Source: Alphaproteobacteria bacterium
GTDB taxonomy: Bacteria; Pseudomonadota; Alphaproteobacteria; Caulobacterales; Parvularculaceae
Length of the DNA: 64,000 nt
Direction: 5' to 3'
NCBI GenBank assembly: GCA_016125455.1
Contig: WGLS01000001.1
Span: 186,001 to 250,000, forward strand
Shown: in pieces, positions 38,469 to 52,739 of the stretch
Layout: the number at the start of each line of letters is the position of its first letter
How positions within the stretch are numbered: the stretch's first letter is position 1
The notes under the pieces: model-generated
Databases searched by the model: none
The model's input: the letters and a program-made list of their open reading frames with translations, nothing else
Told to the model about the DNA's origin: nothing
Program-made: the position numbers and the translations under genes

Positions 38469-39491
38469 ATGGCCAGTTTTGAAAGACGCAGCCGTCCGAC
38501 TGCGAACCAAGCGCCTGCTGAACCAGACGATTACGACCTGGATTTCCGCCCCCAGGTCGCCGCAAAGCTTGGGATCGTCGTCGTCAATCGAGACGAATTC
38601 GAAGAAGTGGAGGCCTGTCTCGCCTGCCTCGCGCCGCAGCTTGAGCTCAATGATGCGCGGGTTGTCGTGGTGGACGTTTCAGCTGAACCGACATCGGCAG
38701 ATCGGGTGGCGGCTCTCCTGGAAATGGATGCAAGCCGCGATGCTCCGCCAACAGACGCATGGAAGTCGCGCGCATCGTTGATCCGTGCCCGACCCTGCCG
38801 CAACAACTCGGCGGGCCTTGCGGTTGCTCTCGAATTCCTCCGCGCCGAAAACTACCTATTCTTGCACGCGTCGGCACGCCTACGTGCTGGCGCTGTGTCC
38901 GCTCTACTCGATGCGGCGAATGAAGTCGGCGTCGCCGCGGCTGCGCCACTTATCGCCGGCGGCCCCGACGCCGGCCTCGCCGTCGCTCGCTTTGGCGACT
39001 GGCCACTCGATTTTTGGACGGAATTTCAGGCTGCGGTGGGACGCCCTTTTCCAATGACCCCGCCAGACGCGGACTTCGCACGGCGCGCTACCCTCGATTG
39101 CCTTGTCGTAAGGGGCGATGCGCTTGAAGCAATTGGCGGTTTCGATTCAATGCTTGGCGAACCGTTCGCCGGGGCGGACCTTGTTCGGCGATTGCGCCGC
39201 AGCGGGAAAAGGGTCGCCTACGCCCCAACAGCGCATGTCGAATTCGCCGATGACATCGCCGCAATGGCCTCGCCTAGAGACGCCAAGGAAGCGCCGGCGT
39301 TTTTTGCAGACAGGGCGCGGTTCTATCGCAAGAGCGGGCCTCGCGCTCTCGCTATCGCGAATCTGGCCTGGCGCCTTGGCCGCGCGATCGCGCGGGTGAA
39401 GAATATGGCAGGGTTAAACGATAGGCACACGCACCATAAAGCCATGGATCGGGCGCGTGGCGGCGCCCTGCGCGGCCGTCGCAAGCGTTAG
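38469..39491 (+). CDS. Family 2 glycosyltransferase-like protein, degenerate
   Basis: A 340-residue protein with a GT2-like N-terminal strand (LGIVVVNRDEFEEVEACLACL) and an acceptor-side region GGFDSMLGEPFAGADLVRRLRRSG, the common GT2 signature. In place of the usual DXD, the matching segment reads YLFLHASARL, with no acidic residue. A 35-residue disordered N-terminus and a basic C-terminal tail with several Arg (GRRKR) flank the domain. It may be an inactive or unusually metal-independent transferase. It starts 16 bases after the CE15 gene and overlaps the convergent acetyltransferase by four bases. Confidence 0.75.
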   Translation: MASFERRSRPTANQAPAEPDDYDLDFRPQVAAKLGIVVVNRDEFEEVEACLACLAPQLELNDARVVVVDVSAEPTSADRVAALLEMDASRDAPPTDAWKSRASLIRARPCRNNSAGLAVALEFLRAENYLFLHASARLRAGAVSALLDAANEVGVAAAAPLIAGGPDAGLAVARFGDWPLDFWTEFQAAVGRPFPMTPPDADFARRATLDCLVVRGDALEAIGGFDSMLGEPFAGADLVRRLRRSGKRVAYAPTAHVEFADDIAAMASPRDAKEAPAFFADRARFYRKSGPRALAIANLAWRLGRAIARVKNMAGLNDRHTHHKAMDRARGGALRGRRKR

Positions 39492-40090
39492 GGAACGTCT
39501 GCGGTTACGCCATCGACAATGACTCGAGCCGGAACGCCGACGGCAAGGGCGCCGGCGGGCACATCGTTGATGACAACCGCATTCGCGCCAATTCTCGCCC
39601 CGTCCCCGATCGATACGCCGCCGATGATTACGGCGCCTGCGCCAACGTCGACGCGATTTCCGATGATCGGCCTACCTTTCAGATCATTTACGTCACGAAC
39701 GCCGAACGTGGTGTTTTGGCGAATTATGACGTCATCGCCAATTTCCCTCGCGACAAGGATCATGCCGCCGAAGTGCTCGAATTTTACGCGGCGGCCCAGC
39801 TTAGTCGTGTAAGGAACATCGATGCCCGCCAATATCTGGACAAGCTTCCTCCAGAAGAGATATACGAATGTCATCGGTGCACGAATGAGTTTCGACCGCA
39901 AGCCCATTCGCCAATTGCCAAACCTATGGTTGAAGATTGCCCAGAAACCCTGGGCGAAGAGGTTGCCCTCATGGGTGCGCAAATCTTCGCCAACCAGCGC
40001 CCAATAGCGAAGACCCACGGGATTCTGGTTCGTATCTCCCCGAAAGTAGTCGGTGTTGTCTTGTGTCGAGGTCACGGTCAGGTTGCTCAT
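39488..40090 (-). CDS. Hexapeptide-repeat acetyltransferase (serine/colanic acid type)
   Basis: A 200-residue left-handed beta-helix acyltransferase. Several hexapeptide turns are visible (IGNRVDVGAGAVIIGGVSIGDGARIGANAVV), ending with VPAGALAVGVPARVI. A helical N-terminal part of about 95 residues precedes them, as in serine acetyltransferase-like enzymes found in polysaccharide clusters. It transfers an acetyl group from acetyl-CoA to a hydroxyl or amino group of a sugar. Its start overlaps the end of the glycosyltransferase by four bases, so the two likely modify one glycan. Confidence 0.88.
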   Translation of the reverse strand: MSNLTVTSTQDNTDYFRGDTNQNPVGLRYWALVGEDLRTHEGNLFAQGFWAIFNHRFGNWRMGLRSKLIRAPMTFVYLFWRKLVQILAGIDVPYTTKLGRRVKFEHFGGMILVAREIGDDVIIRQNTTFGVRDVNDLKGRPIIGNRVDVGAGAVIIGGVSIGDGARIGANAVVINDVPAGALAVGVPARVIVDGVTADVP

Positions 40091-41145
40091 CGATTGTTGT
40101 CGCCTGTCCGCTTCATGTGTGCAAGGAAGCTTCTAACGTCTGCGCGCAGAGCGTTTGTCGGCTTGCCTGAAATTGCTTGCCGCGCAATGTGAAGACTTGC
40201 GCCCGCCAGCCAGCAAATGTCAGCAAGAAATGCTGTTGCAGGGCCATGGTTTCTGGAAAAGTATCTGCGCCGTGATGCAAACACATAGTCGGGCGTGAGC
40301 TGATCTTTTCCGCAGCGACCGCCGACGACCCCGGAAGATCTCCCCACCAGATGGACGAAGCGCGACTGGCCGACATAGTCGACGAACCAACCTGCCCGCT
40401 TCGCGCGCAACATGAGGTCCGTCTCCTCATAGTACATGAAGTAGCCGTCATCGAGGAGGCCGACGCCTTCAAAGACCTCACGCCGGATGAGCGCAGCAGC
40501 ACCGCACACCCAGTCCGCTGCGACAACGCCATCCGTTGGGGGAATGCTGGTCCGCCACTTCGAGAGAAGCCTCGAAAGCGGACCGAGGCGTGCCGCGCCA
40601 TCGAGCTCGCTCGCCGGCGTAAAGAACCTGAAAGCGGATACCTGCGCAACGCCATCCTCGCCCTCCAGACGCGCGCCCGCAACGCCAACGCCCGGACGAT
40701 CAATCATGTGATCAACCAGCTCGCGAAGCGCGCCTGGGCGCGGAAAAGCGTCGGGGTTCATTAGAAGAACAAAGTCCGGGCGATTGCCGGACGGCCCATT
40801 GAAGATCGGGCGAAGGGCAACATTATTGCCGGCAGCGAAGCCGCCATTGACCGGAGAGCAGTGCATTTGGACCTGGGTGACGAAGCCGGAAAAGTCCGCT
40901 AGCGCCTTATCAAGGACGCCGGCGTCCCCATTCGGCGAGGCATTGTCGACAACGTGAATGATAGAACCCGGATAGTTATCGGCTTCGGCGGCGATTAATG
41001 GCAGGTGCTTCAAGACCAAAGGCGCGGTGTTGTAATTGACGATGACGATATGAATTACAGGCAGCTCGGCGGCGGCCCGCGACTTCGCGACCGCCTCACG
41101 GCCGCTCTCCCGAAACATTGATGCAGGTTGCTTCGCGCCATCCAT
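40087..41145 (-). CDS. Family 2 glycosyltransferase (rhamnosyltransferase-like)
   Basis: A 352-residue GT2 from ATG 41145. Motifs are HIVIVNYNTAPLVLKHL, VVDNASPNGDAG and LLMNPDAFPRPGAL (the MNPD acidic motif), then GAAALIRREVFEGVGLLDD and YYEETDLMLRAKRAGW. That pattern is the one of rhamnosyl- and related transferases that add sugars to O-antigen or exopolysaccharide. A TTG at 41163 would add six residues. The ATGA-type overlap links it with the acetyltransferase gene downstream. Confidence 0.9.
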   Translation of the reverse strand: MDGAKQPASMFRESGREAVAKSRAAAELPVIHIVIVNYNTAPLVLKHLPLIAAEADNYPGSIIHVVDNASPNGDAGVLDKALADFSGFVTQVQMHCSPVNGGFAAGNNVALRPIFNGPSGNRPDFVLLMNPDAFPRPGALRELVDHMIDRPGVGVAGARLEGEDGVAQVSAFRFFTPASELDGAARLGPLSRLLSKWRTSIPPTDGVVAADWVCGAAALIRREVFEGVGLLDDGYFMYYEETDLMLRAKRAGWFVDYVGQSRFVHLVGRSSGVVGGRCGKDQLTPDYVFASRRRYFSRNHGPATAFLADICWLAGASLHIARQAISGKPTNALRADVRSFLAHMKRTGDNNR

Positions 41146-41221
41146 AGTGCGGCAGTCTCGCAAGGTTGGACTGACGCTGCGTTAACCCGGGACGGGGCGC
41201 CGGTCGAGCGCTCGCTGCGCC

Positions 41222-41725
41222 TCAAGCGTAGCGCGTACGCGACCCGAACATGCCCCCAAGCAGCGAAAAAAGTGCCGCAGGACCGCCCCACAAGGCCGCC
41301 CCGCCGCCAAGCGCATAAGCCGCGCCCTCAGGCGACAGGGGCAGAGTCAGGCTAAATTGCTCGAAGGTCGATTCAGCAATGCTGCGATCGACGGTCCGCG
41401 CGAGGACAATCGGGCGCATAAGTGGATCGGCATCCTGTAGCGCAATCAGATGGGCGGACAACCGCTCGTAACGGGCGAAAGAATCCGCAATGACGTCCGC
41501 TGTTTTGCTGGCGCTTTCACGACCGCTTTGCCTCAAGTCCTCTATATACTCGCCTCGGGAAAGGCCAAGGCTGTCGACGATGCCGTCGTACTGGGCGACG
41601 ATCATCCGCAATTCATCCACCCGCCCATTCAGGTTCTGGAGGTACTGAAGGGCGTACCCAGGTCCCTGGGAGCCTGCGAAAATGCCGACAAGGCCGAGAA
41701 TGCGCGCGAAAAACTGTCCGATCAT
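41222..41725 (-). CDS. DUF2937 family membrane protein
   Basis: A 167-residue protein from ATG 41725. One N-terminal hydrophobic segment (FFARILGLVGIFAG), a long central helical region (LQYLQNLNGRVDELRMIV, GREYIEDLRQS-like) and a C-terminal Gly/Ala/Leu hydrophobic segment (AALWGGPAALFSLLGGMF) match the DUF2937 layout. No motif suggests an activity. It lies next to the glycosyltransferase on the same strand, 77 bases apart, and is divergent from rimP. Confidence 0.8.
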   Translation of the reverse strand: MIGQFFARILGLVGIFAGSQGPGYALQYLQNLNGRVDELRMIVAQYDGIVDSLGLSRGEYIEDLRQSGRESASKTADVIADSFARYERLSAHLIALQDADPLMRPIVLARTVDRSIAESTFEQFSLTLPLSPEGAAYALGGGAALWGGPAALFSLLGGMFGSRTRYA

Positions 41726-41844
41726 GTCGTTTTTTCCCCAATCCCCCGCCTTCGCCGAAGGCCGAGAGCGGCACAATTAGTAGCCGCCGAAGGAACCATG
41801 CGCCAGAATTCCGCGCCAAAAAACACCGCAAGGCGTGGAAAAGG

Positions 41845-41873
41845 GTGACACGGGTGGAATAATCGCCTATCTA
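41845..41873 (+). promoter_or_regulatory. Candidate sigma-70 promoter of the rimP-nusA operon
   Basis: GTGACA (41845-41850), a 17-base spacer and TATCTA (41868-41873). Transcription would begin near 41880, 15-20 bases before the leader hairpin. Confidence 0.5.
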
Positions 41874-41895
41874 AACGTTGTTGGATGCGACGAAG

Positions 41896-41920
41896 GCGGG
41901 CCCGAGAGGCCCGCTTTTTT
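41896..41920 (+). terminator. Leader terminator upstream of rimP
   Basis: GCGGGCC-CGAGA-GGCCCGC then TTTTTT: a perfect seven-base stem, five-base loop and clear U-tract. No plus-strand gene ends here. It sits between the candidate promoter and the rimP start at 41993, so it could be an attenuator of the rimP-nusA operon or the end of a short leader RNA. Confidence 0.85.
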
Positions 41921-41992
41921 GTTCAGGCACCCCGACCGTCCGGCGATTTCGTAGCGCTTTTCGCCGGCGATTGCGGCGCCGAAGGGACAAAT

Positions 41993-42544
41993 TTGACCGG
42001 GCTAAATGAACGCTTGTGGGAGTTGATCGAGCCGACGGCTGGCGCCGAAGGCTTCGATCTTGTTCGCGTGCGCTTGAGCGGCGCCAAAGCAAAGGCCAAA
42101 ACACTCCAAATCATGGCCGAAAGGCCGGACAAGACAATGACGGCCGAAGACTGCGCCAGACTATCGAGAGCGGTGTCAGCCGTGCTGGACGAGAATGACC
42201 CGATCGAAGGGCAATATGTCCTTGAGGTTTCGTCGCCCGGTATAGATCGCCCCCTGACGCGGCTGAAGGATTTCGAGGATTGGCAAGGTTATCGCGCCAA
42301 AATTGAACTTGATCGCCTAGTGGAGGGACGCAAGCGCTTCTCCGGCGTGCTGGGCGGCCTCGACGGCGACGCCGTTGTGCTCGATATGGATGGCGAAGAA
42401 AGCGCTGTGCTCATCCCTTGTGAATGGATCTCGGACGCAAAGCTTGTCCTGACCGACGAGCTGATCGCGGAGAGCTTCAAGGCGGCGAAGGCCGCGCTCA
42501 AATCGTTAGATCTCGCCGACGCTGAAGCGTCGAGCGGCCAATAA
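41993..42544 (+). CDS. rimP: Ribosome maturation factor RimP
   Basis: A 183-residue protein for 30S assembly. The start is TTG 41993 with GAAGGGA five bases upstream; the family start region (LNERLWELIEPTAGAEGFDLVRVRLSG) follows at once. The core SPGIDRPLTRLKDFEDW and the C-terminal Sm-like barrel (VVLDMDGEESAVLIPCEWI) are clear. First gene of the rimP-nusA-ylxR-infB operon, 33 bases before nusA. A terminator-like hairpin lies in its leader. Confidence 0.95.
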   Translation: MTGLNERLWELIEPTAGAEGFDLVRVRLSGAKAKAKTLQIMAERPDKTMTAEDCARLSRAVSAVLDENDPIEGQYVLEVSSPGIDRPLTRLKDFEDWQGYRAKIELDRLVEGRKRFSGVLGGLDGDAVVLDMDGEESAVLIPCEWISDAKLVLTDELIAESFKAAKAALKSLDLADAEASSGQ

Positions 42545-44269: not shown

Positions 44270-45052
44270 TTGACGGCGCATTCGAATTCGACCCGCGGCA
44301 CGACCAGCGACGCTGGCTTGTCAACCCTTGCGCACGACGGCGACGGCCTGTCATCGGACAAGCCGCCGGCTGGCCAAGCGCACGTCGGCAAATCGCATCG
44401 CGCCAGAGAGCGCAGATGCATCGCAACGGGAATTTTCGAAAGCCCGGATCGACTGATCCGGTTTGTCGTCGGACCGGACAACGTTCTTGTCGCGGATATT
44501 GATCGAAAGCTGCCGGGACGCGGGGCATATATCGCGCCGGAAACGGCGGCCCTTGAACGGGCGCTGGCGCGAAACTTGTTCACGAAGGCATTTGGTTGCC
44601 CTGTGAAATTGCCGGAGGGCGTTGACGTCGTAAGCCTGGGCGCCGACCTCGAACAAGCGTTGCGTCGTCGCCTAGCCGCTGCGGCCGGTTTGGCTCGTCG
44701 TGCTGGCGATCTGGTCGTCGGCCTGGAAAAAATCGACAGGATGCCTCTTGGGCGTCTGGCCTTGATTTTCTCGGCTTCTGACGCCGGCGATCGCAGTCGT
44801 CGATTGGCCGAAAAGATCGCCGTCCGGCACGGGGCCTCCATCTCACGACAACTGCCTTCAGCGGCGCTTTCCGCAGCGATCGGCCTTGACGGCGTCAAAT
44901 ACGCAGGAGTGAAGCACGGGCACTGCGCGCCAGGCGCGATGTGCGACGCAGAAAGGCTGGGAAGGTTTGCGCCTTGTGCGCTCGAGATCGGCGATTTGGA
45001 CGTGGCGGCGCTTTCACCGACGATATTTGCGGTCGGTGGTGACGTTAATTGA
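44270..45052 (+). CDS. ylxR: YlxR (DUF448)/L7Ae-like RNA-binding protein
   Basis: A 260-residue two-domain protein. Starts at TTG 44270 with GAGGAGG ahead. Residues 1-48 are a polar extension rich in Ser/Asp/Ala. The YlxR domain follows: RERRCIATG...DRLIRFVVGPDN and GRGAYIAPETAALERAL. From about 160 a second domain resembles the ribosomal L7Ae-like fold (AAGLARRAGDLVVGLEKI, LIFSASDAGDRSRRLAEK). YlxR genes between nusA and infB are common; they likely bind RNA in ribosome or RNase P context. Extension and fusion are common in alphaproteobacteria. Confidence 0.9.
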   Translation: MTAHSNSTRGTTSDAGLSTLAHDGDGLSSDKPPAGQAHVGKSHRARERRCIATGIFESPDRLIRFVVGPDNVLVADIDRKLPGRGAYIAPETAALERALARNLFTKAFGCPVKLPEGVDVVSLGADLEQALRRRLAAAAGLARRAGDLVVGLEKIDRMPLGRLALIFSASDAGDRSRRLAEKIAVRHGASISRQLPSAALSAAIGLDGVKYAGVKHGHCAPGAMCDAERLGRFAPCALEIGDLDVAALSPTIFAVGGDVN

Positions 45053-45059
45053 TTACAGG

Positions 45060-45091
45060 CCGACGTCGGCGGTGGACCGACGTCGGGTTTT
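45060..45091 (+). terminator. Terminator-like hairpin between ylxR and infB
   Basis: CCGACGTCGG-CGGTGGA-CCGACGTCGG then GTTTTG: a ten-base stem starting eight bases past the ylxR stop. The U-tract is only four bases, so it would leak and could lower infB relative to nusA. The infB start is 160 bases on. Confidence 0.65.
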
Positions 45092-45250
45092 GGGAGTATG
45101 TCCTCCTCGGCTTCACGACAGGCGCGCACCCAGCGTTCGTTGCGCCATGCGTCGCCCGTCCGGTCGTGCCGGCTCGGCGGCGGGCCGGTTCGCCGAGGAA
45201 GACCAAGGAACCCCGCCCTGGAACGATCCGGGGCGGACTGCGGAGATTTG

Positions 45251-47911
45251 ATGAGCGACGACGTTGAGACGAAATCTGAGGCTGGCGAAAAGAAAGGCCG
45301 GCGGCCGCTGACGCTACGCCGAACCGAGACCGGTGCGGTGAAGCAAAGCTTTTCCCATGGCCGTTCGAAAACGGTCGTAGTGGAAACGAAGCGGCGGCGC
45401 GTGCTGACCCCTGGCAAGGCCGAGCCGGATGCCAAGCCAGCGCCGGCCAAGGCAGAAGCGCCCAACGTCGAAGTGCTAAAGGCCGCCCCTGCTGCGCCCG
45501 AAACGAAATCAGCGGCGCGCAAGAAACCGACTGTATTGCGGACGCTCTCCGAAGACGAAAAAAACGCCCGGGCGGCGGCGCTCGTCAAAGCTCGCCAGCA
45601 GGAAGAATCACGGCGGAAGATCGAAGAAGCGGAACGCATCGAGCGAGAAAAGCGCGAAACCGAAGAGCGCGCGCGGCTCGATGAGGAACGCAAGCGCCAG
45701 GCGGACGAAGAAGCTCGCCGCGCGAAGGAATCAGAAGAACGCCGGCGAAAGGAAGATGAGGCCCGCGCCGCGCTTGAAGCTGAAGAAGAAGAGCGCAAGA
45801 AGCGGCAATCCGCGAAACCTGGGACAAAGAAAAAGGGCGCCAAGGCCGACGAGCCAGAAGAGGCGGAAGACGATGACGATCGCCGGGGCGACATCGACCG
45901 TACCCAGGAAGGCGATAACCCGCTTGCGCAATTGGGCGGTCGCCTGAAAACGAAGCGTGGCGGGGATCGCGCGGTCGAGCGGGAATCGAAAACCAAGGAC
46001 GCGCCAAAGCGGCGCTCTGGCAAGCTGACGATCGCATCCGCTCTTGAATCCGACGAAGATCGACAGCGGTCGCTTGCCTCCGTTCGACGCGCTCGTGAGC
46101 GTGAAAAGCAAAGGCGCCAGCAGCGTGGGGGTGCGAACGCGCCGATCGTGCGCGAAGTCGTCATACCCGAGACAATCACAGTCCAGGAACTTGCCCAGCG
46201 CATGGCCATGCGGGCTGTCGAGCTTGTGCGCGAACTGATGAAGCAAGGGCAGATGGTGACGGCGAATGCAATGCTCGACGCTGACACGGCGGAACTGATT
46301 GCGACCGACCTTGGTCACACGGTAAAGCGCGTTGCCGAAGCGGATGTTGAGGAAGGCCTTGTCGGGCCTGACGACGACGACGCGGCAAAACTGCCGCGGC
46401 CGCCAGTCGTGACGATCATGGGCCACGTCGACCACGGCAAGACGTCGCTCCTCGACGCCTTGCGGAAAACCGACGTGGTCAAAGGAGAAGCCGGCGGCAT
46501 CACGCAGCACATCGGCGCTTATCAGGTGACGACGCAAATCGGCGGCGAGGAGAAGAAAATCACGTTCCTCGACACGCCTGGCCACGCCGCATTCACGCAA
46601 ATGCGCGCACGCGGCGCGAACGTCACAGACATTGTGATCCTCGTTGTGGCGGCGGACGATTCAATCATGCCGCAAACAGTCGAAGCTATTAACCACGCAC
46701 GCGCCGCAAACGTTCCGATCATTGTGGCGATCAACAAGATCGACAAGCCGCAGGCGAACCCTGACAAAGTCAGGACCGATCTCCTGCAGCACGAGATACA
46801 GGTCGAAAGCCTCGGCGGGGAAATCCAGGATGTCGAAGTCTCGGCGCTCGCCGGGACTAATCTCGATGGATTGCTCGAGGCGATTACGTTGCAGGCGGAA
46901 TTCCTGGAGCTCAAAGCCAACCCGAACCGGTCCGCCGAAGGCTCCGTCGTGGAGGCGCGGCTCGACAAAGGTCGCGGCCCCATTGCGACCTTGCTCGTGG
47001 AACGCGGCACGCTCAAACGCGGCGATATTCTGGTAGTCGGCGCCGAGTGGGGCAAAGTCCGTGCGCTGACCGACGACAAGAATCAACAGGTCCAGGAAGC
47101 GGGCCCCGCTTATCCGGTCGAAATTCTTGGCCTCAATAGCGTGCCGGCGCCAGGCGATAGTTTTGCCGTCGTCGAATCAGAAGCCCGTGCACGCGAAGTT
47201 TCCGAATTCAGAAGCCGCAAGAAACGAGAGCGCGCAAACGCTAGATCGTCCGGCACGTCGCTGGAACAGATGATGGCCCAACTGCAAGACGCGGAGTTGA
47301 AGGAGCTGCCGCTTGTCATCAAGGGCGACGTTCAGGGCTCGGTCGAGGCGATCATTGGCGCCCTTGAAAAAATGTCGACGAACGAAGTCCGCGTTCGCGT
47401 TCTTCACAATGGCGTCGGAGGCATTTCGGAAAGCGACGTAATTCTTGCCGGCGCATCGAAGGCGCCAGTCATCGGCTTCAACGTCCGCGCGAACAAACAG
47501 GCTCGTGATCAGGCCGAAGCGGACGGCGTCGAAATCCGCTACTATTCGGTCATCTACGACCTTATTGATGACATCAAGGGCGCCCTTTCCGGCATGCTCG
47601 ACCCGGAGCTCCGAGAGACCTTCTTGGGAAATGCGGAAATTCTGGAAGTCTTCAACATAACAAAGGTCGGTAAAGTGGCTGGTTGCCGCGTAACCGAAGG
47701 CCAGGTGAAGCGGGGCGCGAAAGTCCGGCTGATCCGCGACAACACCGTGATACACGAGGGCGAGCTTTCCCAGCTCAAGCGCTTCAAGGACGATGTGCAG
47801 GAAGTGCCCGTTGGCCAGGAATGCGGCATGAGCTTCGCCAACTATGACGACCTCAAGGCCGGTGACGTCATTGAGTGCTTCTCGATCGAGAAAATCACGA
47901 GAACGCTGTAG
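45251..47911 (+). CDS. infB: Translation initiation factor IF-2
   Basis: An 886-residue IF-2 from ATG 45251 with GGAG upstream. Residues 1-330 are a long charged region rich in Lys, Arg, Glu and Ala, with an IF2-associated segment near the start ([23 protein letters not shown] in part) and a heptad-like stretch around 120-210. The G domain has G1 [11 protein letters not shown] (about 391-401), DTPGHAAF and NKIDKP, then domains II, III and C2 that bind fMet-tRNA. It places the initiator tRNA on the ribosome. Followed by a GNAT gene and not directly by rbfA. Confidence 0.98.
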
Positions 47912-48090
47912 CGATACAATGCAGGCCGGGCGCCACCACGCCGGCCATGTATATGACAAGCGCTGGGGGCGCGGACAGCCGTCCGCAACCCTGGGCATAG
48001 TAAACACGGCGTTTGCCAACGTCGCTCGGCGCCAAATCGAGAGACCGTCAGCGCGCCCAAACGTCGAACGGACAGGGAGAATGGCGAGTC

Positions 48091-48600
48091 ATGTTCCTTC
48101 GCCCCCTGAATATTGAACGTGATAAAGATGCGCTGCATGCACTCTACAGCGACCCTAAATGTTGCGAATTCCTGCTCAATCCGGCCACGGAGAGCTTGCA
48201 CGATACGGTTTCAATTCTCCGAACCTACGATTCCGAAGAATCAGATACGAGCTGGGTCGTAGTAAACGATGATGACGGACCGGCGCTTGGCCAAGTGAAG
48301 ATGATTCCGCGCGGCTTCGACACATTTGAAGCGGCAATCATGCTGACGCCGGCGGCGCAGGGCAAAGGGTTAGCTGTCGAGGCTTTGGCAAAGGCGCTGG
48401 ATATCGTGTTCGATGAGCATGGCGCACGGCGGGTCTATGCGGATATTGATCCAGACAATGCACCAACCATCCGACTTTTCGAGAAGCTGGGGTTCATCTT
48501 GGAAGGTCGCCTGCGCGCGACATACGAGACGCATATTGGCGTCCGCGACTCAATCATTGTGAGTCTTCTCGAAAGCGACCGGAAGCCATGGCGCTCTTAA
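48091..48600 (+). CDS. GNAT family N-acetyltransferase (RimJ/RimL-like)
   Basis: A 169-residue acetyltransferase from ATG 48091 with GGGAG upstream. It has the RimJ/RimL-like layout: MFLRPLNIERDKDALHAL at the N-terminus, the acetyl-CoA site GKGLAVEALAKAL (R/Q-x-x-G-x-G/A), VYADIDPDNAPTIRLFEKLGF and LEGRLRATYE. Such enzymes acetylate N-termini of ribosomal proteins or small molecules. It begins 179 bases after infB on the same strand and lies within the usual infB-rbfA gap. Substrate unknown. Confidence 0.88.
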   Translation: MFLRPLNIERDKDALHALYSDPKCCEFLLNPATESLHDTVSILRTYDSEESDTSWVVVNDDDGPALGQVKMIPRGFDTFEAAIMLTPAAQGKGLAVEALAKALDIVFDEHGARRVYADIDPDNAPTIRLFEKLGFILEGRLRATYETHIGVRDSIIVSLLESDRKPWRS

Positions 48601-48631
48601 CGTGACGGCAATCAACTCCGGCCCGAAAGCT

Positions 48632-49735
48632 ATGCTCACTGGGGGAGAGTCCGAACGCAAGCAAGCGAAAATGCCACCGCTAGCGCTTATCTGGGCCTTT
48701 GCCTGGGCAACGGTTTCCGCGAACGTGAGCGCGGCGAATGAACTGGTGTCGGTGGGCGAGGTCATTGCGGAACGTGGGGAAACGGCGTCCGGATTTCTTT
48801 CGTTCGCCGGCTCCACTTCGCGCGGCGTCGATATTCCCGTGACCATTATCAACGGCGCGGGCAATGGGCCGCTGCTGGCCCTGATCGCGGGCGTCCATGG
48901 GATGGAGACAGCGCCACAGGCCGCCTTGCATCGGATCCGGCGCGAAATTGATCCCGCGGATATCTCCGGCGCAATTATTATCGTCCATCGGGTGAACGTT
49001 GAATCATTCCGGCAACGGACGGCCTACCTCAATCCCCTCGACGGAAAGAACATGAACCGCGTCTTCCCTGGGAACGTGCAGGGTTCGATGTCCGAGCGCG
49101 CGGCCGCGGCGATTACCCATCATGTGATCGATCAAGCAGATTATCTTGTCGATATGCATGCAGGCGACGCGAATGAAGATCTCGCGCCCTATGTTTACGT
49201 GCCGATGACGGGCGATCGCGAACAGGACGTTAGCACAATTGCCCTCGCGCGGGCGTTTGGAGTGGGCCGGTACTTGCCAATCGATATCTCAACAACTGAT
49301 TTCGAGGCGCCGATATTCTTGGATTTCACGGCCGCAGTCCGTGGCGTCACCACCATCACGACCGAAACAGGCAGCCGCGGCGAAGCGGCCTCGTGGGCGG
49401 TGGATCTCGCATCGAATGGCGTTCGCGGGGTCTTGGCGCATCTCGGGATGACGAACAAAGGCCCGTACCTTGAACAGACGGCAGAGGTGTGGCTTTCCGC
49501 AGCGGAGATATTTCCTGCGCCGAAGAACGGGTTCTTCGCGGCATCGGTTACGAGTGGTGCGGAGGTTCAAGAGGGCGACGAAATCGGGCGACTGTTCGAT
49601 CCGTTCGGCGATGTGATAGCGATAGTCTCTGCACCATTTGACGGCTGGGTGAACTACGTCATAGCAACGCCGCCAGCAAATGAAGGAGATCCTCTCGCTA
49701 TGATAAGCCGGTTCGGCACGCCGCCGCTGGATTGA
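48632..49735 (+). CDS. Succinylglutamate desuccinylase/aspartoacylase (M14) family secreted protein
   Basis: A 367-residue protein from ATG 48632; ATG 48671 would shorten it by 13. An N-terminal hydrophobic stretch (LALIWAFAWATVSA, ending VSAAN) looks like a signal peptide. The zinc site of the aspartoacylase/M14 group is visible: GVHGMETAPQ (H89, E92) and DMHAG (H176), with NMNRVFPG in between. A C-terminal beta region with GWVNYVIA follows. Such enzymes hydrolyse N-acyl amino acids or peptides, here likely in the periplasm. It overlaps neither neighbour and is 31 bases past the GNAT gene. Confidence 0.88.
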   Translation: MLTGGESERKQAKMPPLALIWAFAWATVSANVSAANELVSVGEVIAERGETASGFLSFAGSTSRGVDIPVTIINGAGNGPLLALIAGVHGMETAPQAALHRIRREIDPADISGAIIIVHRVNVESFRQRTAYLNPLDGKNMNRVFPGNVQGSMSERAAAAITHHVIDQADYLVDMHAGDANEDLAPYVYVPMTGDREQDVSTIALARAFGVGRYLPIDISTTDFEAPIFLDFTAAVRGVTTITTETGSRGEAASWAVDLASNGVRGVLAHLGMTNKGPYLEQTAEVWLSAAEIFPAPKNGFFAASVTSGAEVQEGDEIGRLFDPFGDVIAIVSAPFDGWVNYVIATPPANEGDPLAMISRFGTPPLD

Positions 49736-49911
49736 TACACGAGTCGAACAGATCTTCACGACAGCATTCAACGGGCGCCGGGCGCAAACTTGGATTATTC
49801 TTCTTGCAGGCGTCGCTCAGGCGGCGACAATTCAGCACGCGTCCCATCAAATCCGGAGGCCAGTGGCCGGACGTAACTGCGGCGATTTGCTTGTTATCGC
49901 GCGGAGCTACC

Positions 49912-50685
49912 ATGATAGATCGGCAGGAAATTGATCCGAGACGTCCGCTGCCCGGCGTTATGGTTACGGATGTTGCAACTGAGGCCGACGCTGATTCCGC
50001 GATCGCGGCAGGCGCATTTGCCATTTCTTTTGCGACATCAGACGCTCTCACCAATCACAATGCGGCAGAAATGGCGGGCCAGCATCCAATGCGACGCCTT
50101 TCGGCGTATGTAGCCGCAATAGCGCCTCGAGGCTTGTGGCGCGTGCTCTGCACGACGCGCCAGGCAGGGGAGATAGCCGACGAAATTCATGCCGCCGGCG
50201 CTACTGCCGTTCACTTGCCTTCAACTGCCGGCGACCGAGACAGGACAATTGTTCGCGCCGCCCATCCAAGCGTAAAGATCATCCAGGCGCTCGACGCCCG
50301 CAACAATCGCGCAATCGAGTTCGCTCAAAGCATAGACCGCCAGGTCGACGCGTTCCTCGTCGACTGTGCGCCTCGCCCCGCGCCGACTGCCGACCCATCG
50401 ACATCCCTGGGCGCCAGGCTCGCCGAAGCCTGGGCGCGCGCGAAGGAGATTTCGGATAGCTGCGCTTCGGTGACTATTCTCGCGGGCGAACTGTCGCGAA
50501 ACAATCTCGAGGCGGCGCTATTGGCGGCTACGCCAGCGGGGGCGGCTATTTCGATCCGAACGACGCCAGACATGCCGTCAATCGAACGCATCCAACGGCC
50601 ATCGACAAGAGCTGTCGGTTCACCGACCCGGCATGTCCTTGTTCGCTCAACGGCGCATCCGGCACGGCAGAGAAGCAATGCCTAG
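49912..50685 (+). CDS. TrpF-like (phosphoribosylanthranilate isomerase fold) protein lacking the catalytic Cys
   Basis: A 257-residue protein from ATG 49912 with GGAG seven bases ahead. Its N-terminal strand LPGVMVTDVATEADADSAIAAGAFAISF and central FLVDCAPRPAP resemble TrpF barrel strands, as do TAVHLPS and VTILAGELSRNN. The catalytic Cys found as KICG in true TrpF is replaced (MVTDV), while an Asp in FLVD is kept. It is not in a trp operon; it lies between a deacylase and rbfA. So isomerase activity is doubtful. The family assignment is by pattern only and should be treated as moderate. Confidence 0.6.
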   Translation: MIDRQEIDPRRPLPGVMVTDVATEADADSAIAAGAFAISFATSDALTNHNAAEMAGQHPMRRLSAYVAAIAPRGLWRVLCTTRQAGEIADEIHAAGATAVHLPSTAGDRDRTIVRAAHPSVKIIQALDARNNRAIEFAQSIDRQVDAFLVDCAPRPAPTADPSTSLGARLAEAWARAKEISDSCASVTILAGELSRNNLEAALLAATPAGAAISIRTTPDMPSIERIQRPSTRAVGSPTRHVLVRSTAHPARQRSNA

Positions 50686-50717
50686 CGTTCACGTACATCA
50701 CCGACTATGTGCATTTG

Positions 50718-51143
50718 ATGCGACGGCATTCAACACAAGGGCCTGGCCGGCCCTCGAAAGGTCCATCACAGCGGCAACTCCGGGCCGGCGAGCTCATTCG
50801 GCACGCAATAGTCGAAATCCTTCAACGCGAAGATCTTCGGGACCCTGCGCTGTCCGGCGTCGCGGTAACCGTTAGCGAAGTTCGAATGACGCCCGACCTG
50901 AAGCAGGCGACAGTGTTCTGCGCACGGCTCGGCGCGTCGGCCGGCGAGGGCGACCAAGACTCGGCAATGATACTTGCGCTGAATCGCGTCGCGCCAAAGA
51001 TTCGCGGCCTCCTAGGCAAGAAGATCGACCTGAAATTTACCCCTTCGCTTGAGTTCAAGCGTGACGAAACGTTCGACGAAGCGGAGCGAATACGCCGATT
51101 GCTCGCGCGGCCAGATGTGTCGCGCGACTTGGCGGGCGATTGA
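50718..51143 (+). CDS. rbfA: Ribosome-binding factor A
   Basis: A 141-residue RbfA. The KH-like domain spans about 25-120: RAGELIRHAIVEILQREDLRDP, VSEVRMTPDLKQATVFCARLG and DLKFTPSLEFKRDETFDEA. The N-terminus is basic (MRRHSTQGPGRPSKGPS). I chose ATG 50718; a GTG three codons earlier is possible. It binds the 30S subunit during late maturation. Normally next to infB; here four genes intervene in part (a GNAT, an M14 enzyme and a TrpF-like protein). 3' end is convergent with the small membrane protein gene. Confidence 0.95.
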   Translation: MRRHSTQGPGRPSKGPSQRQLRAGELIRHAIVEILQREDLRDPALSGVAVTVSEVRMTPDLKQATVFCARLGASAGEGDQDSAMILALNRVAPKIRGLLGKKIDLKFTPSLEFKRDETFDEAERIRRLLARPDVSRDLAGD

Positions 51144-51156
51144 CCATTGCCAGTTG

Positions 51157-51558
51157 TTACGGCCCCAGAACGCGCACAGCGGCGATTGCAAGAATGCCTA
51201 CCGCGAAGATGCCGGCGAGCGCATTTCGGGCTAGCTTTGAGGGCGTCGCCCCGCATTCAAGGTGATCCGCTATTCCGAGAAGTGTCGCGAACGACGTAAC
51301 GAATGCCATGCCGCCGTATGCAAGCGTCAACCCAAATGCAATTGGCTCGATCTGAACATTGGATCGGCTCATTGGCAAACCGGTCAATAGCTCGAACACG
51401 CTAGGGCAGAACAAGGTCAGCAGTAATGGCGCAGCCACGGCGGCGCCGGCAAGTGCGATCAATTCAACATCCCACATCGCGGTGACATCAGCATTGGACT
51501 GGTTTTGTGAAGGGTGATTGATCGATTTCAATCGAGCGAAAAACGGCAAGTTCGGCAT
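51157..51558 (-). CDS. Hypothetical four-helix membrane protein
   Basis: A 133-residue protein with GAGGAA six bases upstream of its ATG. A 28-residue polar N-terminus precedes about three hydrophobic segments (ELIALAGAAVAAPLLLTLF, AFGLTLAYGGMAFVTSFATLL and ALAGIFAVGILAIAAVRVL). No family recognised. It sits on the minus strand between rbfA and truB, 13 bases from the rbfA stop, splitting the usual rbfA-truB pair. Confidence 0.65.
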   Translation of the reverse strand: MPNLPFFARLKSINHPSQNQSNADVTAMWDVELIALAGAAVAAPLLLTLFCPSVFELLTGLPMSRSNVQIEPIAFGLTLAYGGMAFVTSFATLLGIADHLECGATPSKLARNALAGIFAVGILAIAAVRVLGP

Positions 51559-51785
51559 TGCAATTCCTCATGCATCCTCTCCCCGTTTGCTTTCGACCTC
51601 CCCGAAAGGTCGCCTTAGAAGGCCTCCCTGACCCTCGGAGAAATCAATAAATCGCAGTTTTGGCGAAAAAATGATGGATCGCATCAAGAAGGCCACTTTT
51701 TGGACATCCGACCAAATAACTTGCGAAACGCCTAGTTGACCCCGGTCTTAATCCCTGTTGAAAGCCAGCGCTTCTCAACCCTGCG

Positions 51786-52739
51786 GTGAACGAAATGGGT
51801 CGTCGGCGAAAAAAGGGCCGCCCGGTCAATGGCTGGATCGTCCTCGACAAGGACTATGATTTCGGGTCGACCGATGCCGTTTCGAAGCTGAAATGGCTGC
51901 TAAAGGCACAAAAGGCCGGCCACGCTGGAACACTCGATCCGCTTGCAACTGGCATTTTGCCAATCGCCTTTGGCGAAGCGACCAAGACGGTCCCGTATGT
52001 GACAGAATCCCGAAAGACTTATCGCTTTACGGCGCGCTGGGGCATTTCGACCACCACGGACGATGCTGAGGGCGAAGAACTCGCCACATCGCAGATCCGA
52101 CCGGATCGCGAGCAGATCCTCTCTAGATTGCCAGCATTTACCGGCGCAATCAAACAAACACCGCCCAAATTTTCGGCAATCAAGATCGACGGCGCGAGAG
52201 CCTACGACCTCGCCCGTGATGGGGAAGATGTATCACCGGCCGCTCGGACAATTCAGGTTCATCGGCTTGAACTGATCAACACCCCCGACGCGGATCATGC
52301 GTCTTTCGAAGCGGTCACGGGTAAGGGGGCATATGTTCGTGCTCTTGTACGTGATTTGGCGAAGGCTCTGGGTACGGAGGGGCACGTCAGCGAACTTCGC
52401 CGAACCGCGGTTGGCCCCTTCACAGAAGCGAACGCCGTCAAATTGTCGATGCTCGAACAACTGGAAACGCCGGAAGAGCGCGATGAGGAACTCCTGCCCG
52501 TCGAAGCGGCGCTGGCGCATCTGCCCCAGGCCGACATCGGGGAATCCGAAGCGGGACGCCTTCGCTGCGGCCAGCCTGCGGTTCTGTCGCCGGCGACTGC
52601 CCGCGGGATCCGGGCTGGCGAGTCCGGCCTGGTCGCCTCGGTCCTGGCGCTCAGAAACGGCGGTCCTGTCGCTATTTGCGAGTTGGACGGCCTGAAACTA
52701 CATCCTTTGCGGGTTTTCAACCTCGCCAACCCGGAGTGA
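51786..52739 (+). CDS. truB: tRNA pseudouridine(55) synthase TruB
   Basis: A 317-residue enzyme that makes pseudouridine 55 in the T-arm of tRNA. The catalytic motif GHAGTLDPLATG carries the nucleophile Asp (D51 from GTG). The KTYRFTARWG, FTGAIKQTPPKFSAIKIDG and RALVRDLAKALGT motifs follow in family order. GTG 51786 and ATG 51795 are both in frame; no strong Shine-Dalgarno decides between them. It needs its own promoter, because rbfA and truB are separated by an opposing gene. A clear terminator follows at 52885. Confidence 0.97.
   Translation: MNEMGRRRKKGRPVNGWIVLDKDYDFGSTDAVSKLKWLLKAQKAGHAGTLDPLATGILPIAFGEATKTVPYVTESRKTYRFTARWGISTTTDDAEGEELATSQIRPDREQILSRLPAFTGAIKQTPPKFSAIKIDGARAYDLARDGEDVSPAARTIQVHRLELINTPDADHASFEAVTGKGAYVRALVRDLAKALGTEGHVSELRRTAVGPFTEANAVKLSMLEQLETPEERDEELLPVEAALAHLPQADIGESEAGRLRCGQPAVLSPATARGIRAGESGLVASVLALRNGGPVAICELDGLKLHPLRVFNLANPE

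Follow-up and report, generated by a model that had tools for sequence, protein, structure and literature searches.

The leader of the rimP-nusA operon in this genome raises the question of whether a hairpin between a promoter-like site and rimP can stop transcription early, and whether NusA itself governs the stop. The window (the whole stretch of DNA that was analysed, 64,000 nucleotides of an alphaproteobacterial contig of the family Parvularculaceae) carries rimP, nusA, ylxR and infB, then rbfA and truB; such a nusA gene cluster is widespread, and in the window further ORFs separate infB from rbfA. In model bacteria, nusA and infB are essential. It is quite probable that the leader of rimP-nusA-ylxR-infB contains a partial intrinsic terminator, an alphaproteobacterial form of the rimP-leader attenuator, with feedback by NusA. 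The predicted start is near 41880, some 16 nt ahead of the stem; some of the polymerases would stop at 41915-41920 and release a short RNA, and the remainder would read through into the operon. NusA, encoded on the same transcript, would raise termination and thereby limit its own level.

Anatomy of the leader

The terminator stem reads as a perfect 7 bp, all G-C, and the fold can extend it to 10-11 bp by pairing with the T-run (Table 1). The segment 41893-41920 folds at -17.6 kcal/mol (z -3.1), and the predicted leader RNA at -22.6 kcal/mol (z -3.8; 1 of 200 shuffles is as good). The small stem immediately upstream shares no bases with the terminator in the fold; its 5' arm possibly precedes the transcription start. 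An earlier note, made from the letters alone, had described a candidate promoter, a perfect seven-base stem, T6 and then rimP, and all of these are present as described between 41845 and 41993. The start of rimP is the TTG, placed by comparison, and it lies 72 nt after the T-run. The reading frame is open back to an ATG at 41885, and a gene caller could thus add a false 36-residue extension to RimP through the terminator; the longer ORF from this ATG would cross the hairpin, and the ATG is an unlikely start.

No gene ends on the plus strand near the hairpin, as the earlier note had also said; the upstream neighbours (39488-41776) are all on the minus strand. The orientation of these neighbours bears on the idea that the hairpin merely guards against read-through from upstream and has nothing to do with regulation. 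An intergenic position would suit a guard, but the neighbours run on the opposite strand and a conserved promoter stands upstream of the hairpin, so that a guard would block the operon itself; this explanation is scarcely credible.

The pattern GCGGGCCN3-8GGCCCGCTTTT occurs once in the 3.6-Mb assembly, at rimP. A simple terminator scanner does not include the hairpin among its calls in the window, apparently because it lets the stem extend into the T-run, and a purpose-written scorer was therefore used. When the 250 nt preceding the rimP match are shuffled with dinucleotides preserved, this scorer finds a terminator at least as good in 2 of 1000 shuffles. The sequence is G+C-rich, which would favour the accidental formation of a hairpin; given the shuffles and the single occurrence in the genome, the probability of such an accident is close to nil, and conservation across the class (below) refutes it.

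Table 1. Features of the rimP-nusA leader and its surroundings (positions in the window)
Feature	Position	Strand	Basis
Hexapeptide transferase	39488-40090	-	
Glycosyltransferase	40087-41163	-	
DUF2937 ORF, divergent from rimP	41222-41776	-	
Promoter-like site GTGACA (41845-41850), N17, TATCTA (41868-41873)	41845-41873	+	8/12 consensus matches, weak alone
Small stem CGTTGT/GCGACG, immediately 5' of terminator	41876-41892	+	Fold
Predicted terminated leader RNA, ~41 nt	41880-41920	+	Start inferred 6-7 nt after -10 TATCTA
Terminator hairpin GCGGGCC-CGAGA-GGCCCGC, with GGGC..GCCC core	41896-41914	+	Sequence, shuffles, conservation
Stem arm GCGGGCC	41896-41902	+	
Loop CGAGA	41903-41907	+	
Stem arm GGCCCGC	41908-41914	+	
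T6 tract, then GTT	41915-41920	+	
Shine-Dalgarno GAAGGGA of rimP	41981-41987	+	Sequence
rimP, TTG start, 183 aa	41993-42544	+	Pfam RimP_N 1.4e-22, RimP C-terminal domain 4.8e-13
nusA, 553 aa	42578-44239	+	Pfam NusA_N 1.8e-36, KH_5 1.3e-30, S1 8.1e-07
Rest of gene cluster	44270-52739	+	ORF list, Pfam
ylxR	44270-45052	+	
infB	ends 47911	+	
rbfA	50709-51143	+	
truB	51786-52739	+	

Conservation of the hairpin and its motif

Leaders were read in three samples. In the family, 60 genomes were searched, 56 have rimP and 55 were read (G059 was dropped; contig start). The search of the order Caulobacterales covered 150 genomes, 119 of them outside the family, from which 47 hand-picked over genera were read. 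For the class, 192 were searched; 171 have rimP, 168 of these lie outside the order, and 68 loci were read (28 best matches and 40 hand-picked). RimP is 60-67% identical to that of the named relatives Marinicaulis, Aquisalinus and Parvularcula. There is one readable congener, G002; the other, G001, has no rimP match.

In the 250 nt before the rimP match, a hairpin with a T-run is present in 46 of 53 family leaders, 36 of 47 from other families of the order and 38 of 67 from other orders of the class (scorer threshold 17; G027, G040 and G187 are left out as having less than 250 nt upstream), counts that are not independent because the sampled genomes are related. The same scan finds 3, 1 and 1 on the opposite strand, and 0.9, 0.35 and 0.75 in dinucleotide shuffles. 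This conservation upstream of rimP makes the hairpin more than a product of chance. At threshold 16 the counts are 47/55, 32/47 and 38/68 with stricter pairing, and 47/55, 39/47 and 44/68 if slightly interrupted T-runs are allowed. The scorer at threshold 17 finds no hairpin in 7/53, 11/47 and 29/67 leaders; by eye, several of these misses are imperfect forms of hairpin and T-run (e.g. G224, G331, G005) and others are without any. Of 80 named loci, 77 have enough upstream sequence, and 66 of the 77 have the hairpin, 44 of these 66 with GGGC..GCCC. In an alignment of 46 family leaders, which were chosen for having the hairpin, the invariant columns lie in the stem and the T-run; 5' of the stem, conservation breaks down between the window's genus and the other Parvularculaceae.

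The counts that follow, for motif, promoter and the hairpin called P1, refer only to the 130 of 170 leaders with a hairpin (47 family, 39 order, 44 class). GGGC..GCCC is present in 34/47 family and 35/44 class hairpins. In the order sample it is kept in 4/39 and absent in 35/39; in the other Caulobacterales families the stem has mostly changed (GCGGCGG.., GCGGCTC..). The motif is thus not needed for the arrangement, and position and form outlast it. A looser pattern, GGGCCN3-7GGCCCNCTTTTT, has 41 matches in 34 of the 192 class genomes searched; 19 lie on the proper strand no more than 200 nt before rimP and 22 are elsewhere, although five of the latter (four in G292, one in G342, all with C or T at N) were counted so without a listed rimP place. 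In a split by N made after seeing the matches, A or G accounts for 24, including all 19 at rimP (the other five lie at a distance from rimP or on a different contig), and C or T accounts for 17, all counted as elsewhere. The GGGc..gCCC terminator is therefore strongly enriched at rimP in Alphaproteobacteria; it is no absolute rule.

Several other features were seen among these leaders. The T-run is followed, after at most one other base, by GTT, ATT or CTT in 43/47 family, 33/39 order and 32/44 class leaders (41921-41923 in the window). Most Rhodobacterales loci among L215-L257 have a distinct leader type, rather uniform across genera, in which CCACCGG.. precedes CGGGCCGCGCGCCCG or a variant of it; a T-run follows, and often GTG. 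Five loci (L087, L137, L263, L265, L267) have a leader type without hairpin and T-run by the scorer; immediately ahead of rimP they resemble one another around TGTTGTGTGGCGGTCC..GATCGCCGC, which may be a further leader element. One record, L205, is titled 'Oceanobacillus sp. HTM 045', a Firmicutes name; its RimP is 56% identical to that of the window, its leader hairpin is CGGGCCGCGAGGCCCG with T6, and it is probably misnamed.

Promoter, probable passage of the operon transcripts and P1

The promoter-like site of the window aligns with CTGACA-N17-TATATA of its relatives. Such a site lies upstream of the hairpin in 41/47 family and 29/39 order leaders (1.4 and 2.2 in shuffles), and more weakly in the rest of the class (16/44 versus 4.6 in shuffles). 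From the end of the -10 to the stem there are 27-30 nt in 38 of the 41 family cases (family range 22-33), with 22 nt in the window and 23 nt in its congener G002. The start site is uncertain, since the -10 of the window, TATCTA, is weak and the promoter scanner prefers another site, TGGAAA-N16-AATAAT at 41836-41863. The length predicted for the terminated RNA, about 41 nt, is near the 40 bases or so that the earlier note had suggested.

The gap between the T-run and the rimP match is at most 40 nt in 32/47 family leaders (minimum 20); this is mainly a family trait, found in 7/39 order and 10/44 class leaders. In short-gap leaders a second promoter could fit only by overlapping the hairpin, and operon transcripts therefore very probably pass the terminator. 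From this it would follow that the terminator is partial or regulated. The view that a leader terminator stands downstream of the operon's visible promoter, already put forward from the window alone, is strongly supported by conservation across family, order and class.

The same gap speaks against the idea that promoter and terminator belong to a separate small RNA gene, about 41 nt long, and that rimP is expressed from a promoter of its own. Promoter and terminator do frame a short RNA, a ProQ-associated sRNA derived from the rimP leader is described in PMC5391140, and the window has its longer gap in front of rimP. Yet the gap is short in most family leaders, the promoter scan lists no site between hairpin and rimP within the 72 nt of the window, and the sequence 5' of the stem differs between the window's genus and other Parvularculaceae. 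A separate small RNA gene is accordingly most improbable.

NusA feedback is the leading explanation in the literature for the rimP-leader element, and for Alphaproteobacteria the NusA step would be carried over from other bacteria. NusA-dependent terminators are usually weak; as the stem in the window is strong, the terminator there might work without NusA. The main influence on it could instead be something else: a fixed read-through fraction, or RimP, an r-protein, NusG/Rho or growth rate. A strong stem with T6 may terminate unaided, PMC2965389 mentions RimP feedback as possible, and E. coli fusions of the rimP 5' UTR and ORF fell in a rho mutant (PMC7815308); the literature search found no effector test in Alphaproteobacteria. 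Against this, PMC12288461 reports that NusA acts back through the leader in B. subtilis, and PMC4448216 discusses such feedback for E. coli and S. agalactiae. A leader terminator with a main regulator other than NusA is rather unlikely, and feedback by NusA is the preferred reading.

How termination could be modulated is suggested by a second hairpin, P1. In other Parvularculaceae it forms from bases between the start site and the terminator (e.g. CGCT.TCGA/TCGA.AGCG), and it overlaps the terminator: its final three bases are also the three that begin the terminator stem (the foot). The foot is taken by a helix of 7 bp or more in 44/47 family leaders and 28/39 from the rest of the order (5.4 and 9.9 in shuffles); in the rest of the class, helix length gives no signal (9/44 versus 7.8). 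The pairing probability of the foot reaches p <=0.05 (60 shuffles each) in 36/47 family, 6/39 order and 12/44 class leaders. The evidence for P1 is thus weaker outside the family. Its sequence is diverse, with 28 distinct helices in 45 family leaders and 25 in 36 order leaders (lists at a 5-bp threshold that include a spurious case from the window itself); variation is given as lists of distinct helices, and sequence alignment slips register in the GATAAGCG group. In five selected leaders the P1 fold and the terminator fold are 1.4-4.3 kcal/mol apart, and in two of them, G086 and G113, some of the foot already pairs within P1 in the best fold. Among the numbered loci, P1 is seen upstream of rimP in many of L003-L031, L051-L061, L091-L130 and L171-L190. 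The leader of Parvularcula lutaonensis (L202) likewise shows a P1-like stretch, then the hairpin and a T-run, ahead of rimP.

P1 is absent from the folds of the window and of G002. Forcing the alternative fold costs about 13 kcal/mol in the window (-24.3 versus -11.5), and again about 13 in G002, so the window's genus works, if at all, without P1. The pairing of the foot in the window is 0.92 (p 0.12) but uses bases upstream of the start site. A P1-type pairing of CGCCT with AGGCG was rejected, its bases lying upstream of either candidate start site. Nor does the fold of the window offer a viable alternative pairing of a terminator arm, as a terminator/antiterminator switch would have.

According to a rule cited in PMC8060035, the distance from the hairpin to the RNA 3' end is 7-9 nt for terminators and 11-12 nt for pauses. 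P1 could turn the terminator into a pause, because with P1 formed the stem would be up to three pairs shorter and its distance from the T-run three bases greater. It is conceivable, though on balance doubtful, that the rimP leader of Caulobacterales is a two-state RNA switch, of which the window's genus has lost P1 and kept the plain terminator. P1 would form first and take the first three bases of the terminator stem; the later hairpin, three pairs shorter and three bases further from the T-run, would become a pause or read-through site; and the choice between the two states would be set by NusA or some other operon product. The overlap offers a testable answer to how the rimP terminator could be modulated, given that the first survey of these leaders saw no antiterminator in the general rimP-leader.

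Comparison with known leaders

Naville & Gautheret (2010, PMC2965389) ranked rimP first among genes with predicted attenuators. Their text describes a general rimP-leader without a visible antiterminator (one is placed in an extra upstream hairpin of some Gammaproteobacteria), names NusA as the best candidate effector and calls the GGGc..gCCC terminator special to rimP leaders. The window agrees with their rimP-leader in its GGGc..gCCC hairpin and T-run, 4-130 nt before rimP in the survey and 72 nt here. The text names Firmicutes and Gammaproteobacteria, whereas the window is alphaproteobacterial; the window also has a promoter-like site, with a -10 that ends 22 nt before the stem. The specificity of their motif appears here as enrichment, and in the window's own genome the only match is the one at rimP.

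The Rfam family RF01770 (rimP) is a leader with terminator at the same gene, in a model of 102 positions, and PMC5471319 lists it for Gammaproteobacteria. It finds E. coli, the sole positive among 14 control genomes. At its gathering cut-off of 47 bits it has no match in the window's genome, and 0/57 class genomes exceed the cut-off (three have weak matches); in 41700-42100 it has no match at E up to 10. Rfam as a whole has no match over the 64-kb window, and in 41700-42100 at E up to 10 it yields only IMES-5 and a group II intron domain, both far below cut-off. Among the matches listed in a search of open-licence literature there is no paper on an alphaproteobacterial rimP leader; as evidence that none exists this is weak, the survey's own lists of species lying outside the search.

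In the metY-rimP-nusA leader of E. coli, PMC6511841 places terminators t1 and t2 upstream of rimP; the hairpin just before rimP reads, in our own inspection of the sequence, GGGC-TTTA-GGCCC-T7. The window resembles this leader in having a terminator between promoter and rimP. The E. coli leader contains the tRNA gene metY and tandem hairpins, while that of the window is without a tRNA; a leader of the metY type was rejected because ARAGORN finds no tRNA in the window.

In B. subtilis, the review PMC12288461 reports termination stimulated by NusA in the nusA leader. As in the window, an intrinsic terminator lies upstream of nusA; dependence on NusA is reported there and would apply here by analogy. 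The gbs0413-gbs0418 operon of S. agalactiae gives a short and a long RNA from one start, with termination 31 nt downstream by RNA-seq, and feedback by NusA is proposed (PMC4448216). That leader also precedes rimP-nusA-infB, and its 31 nt may be set beside the 41 nt or so predicted here. The leader RNA of rimP has moreover been placed among the ProQ-associated sRNAs (PMC5391140).

The hairpin of the window is a Parvularculaceae, and thus alphaproteobacterial, rimP-leader of an already known type that RF01770 misses. The rimP-leader terminator is widespread in Alphaproteobacteria, where RF01770 is blind to it in the genomes tested, and in Caulobacterales it comes with its promoter. Early termination as a feedback on the nusA operon may be very widespread. 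The principle is established; the reach across the class and the overlap with P1 are useful additions to it.
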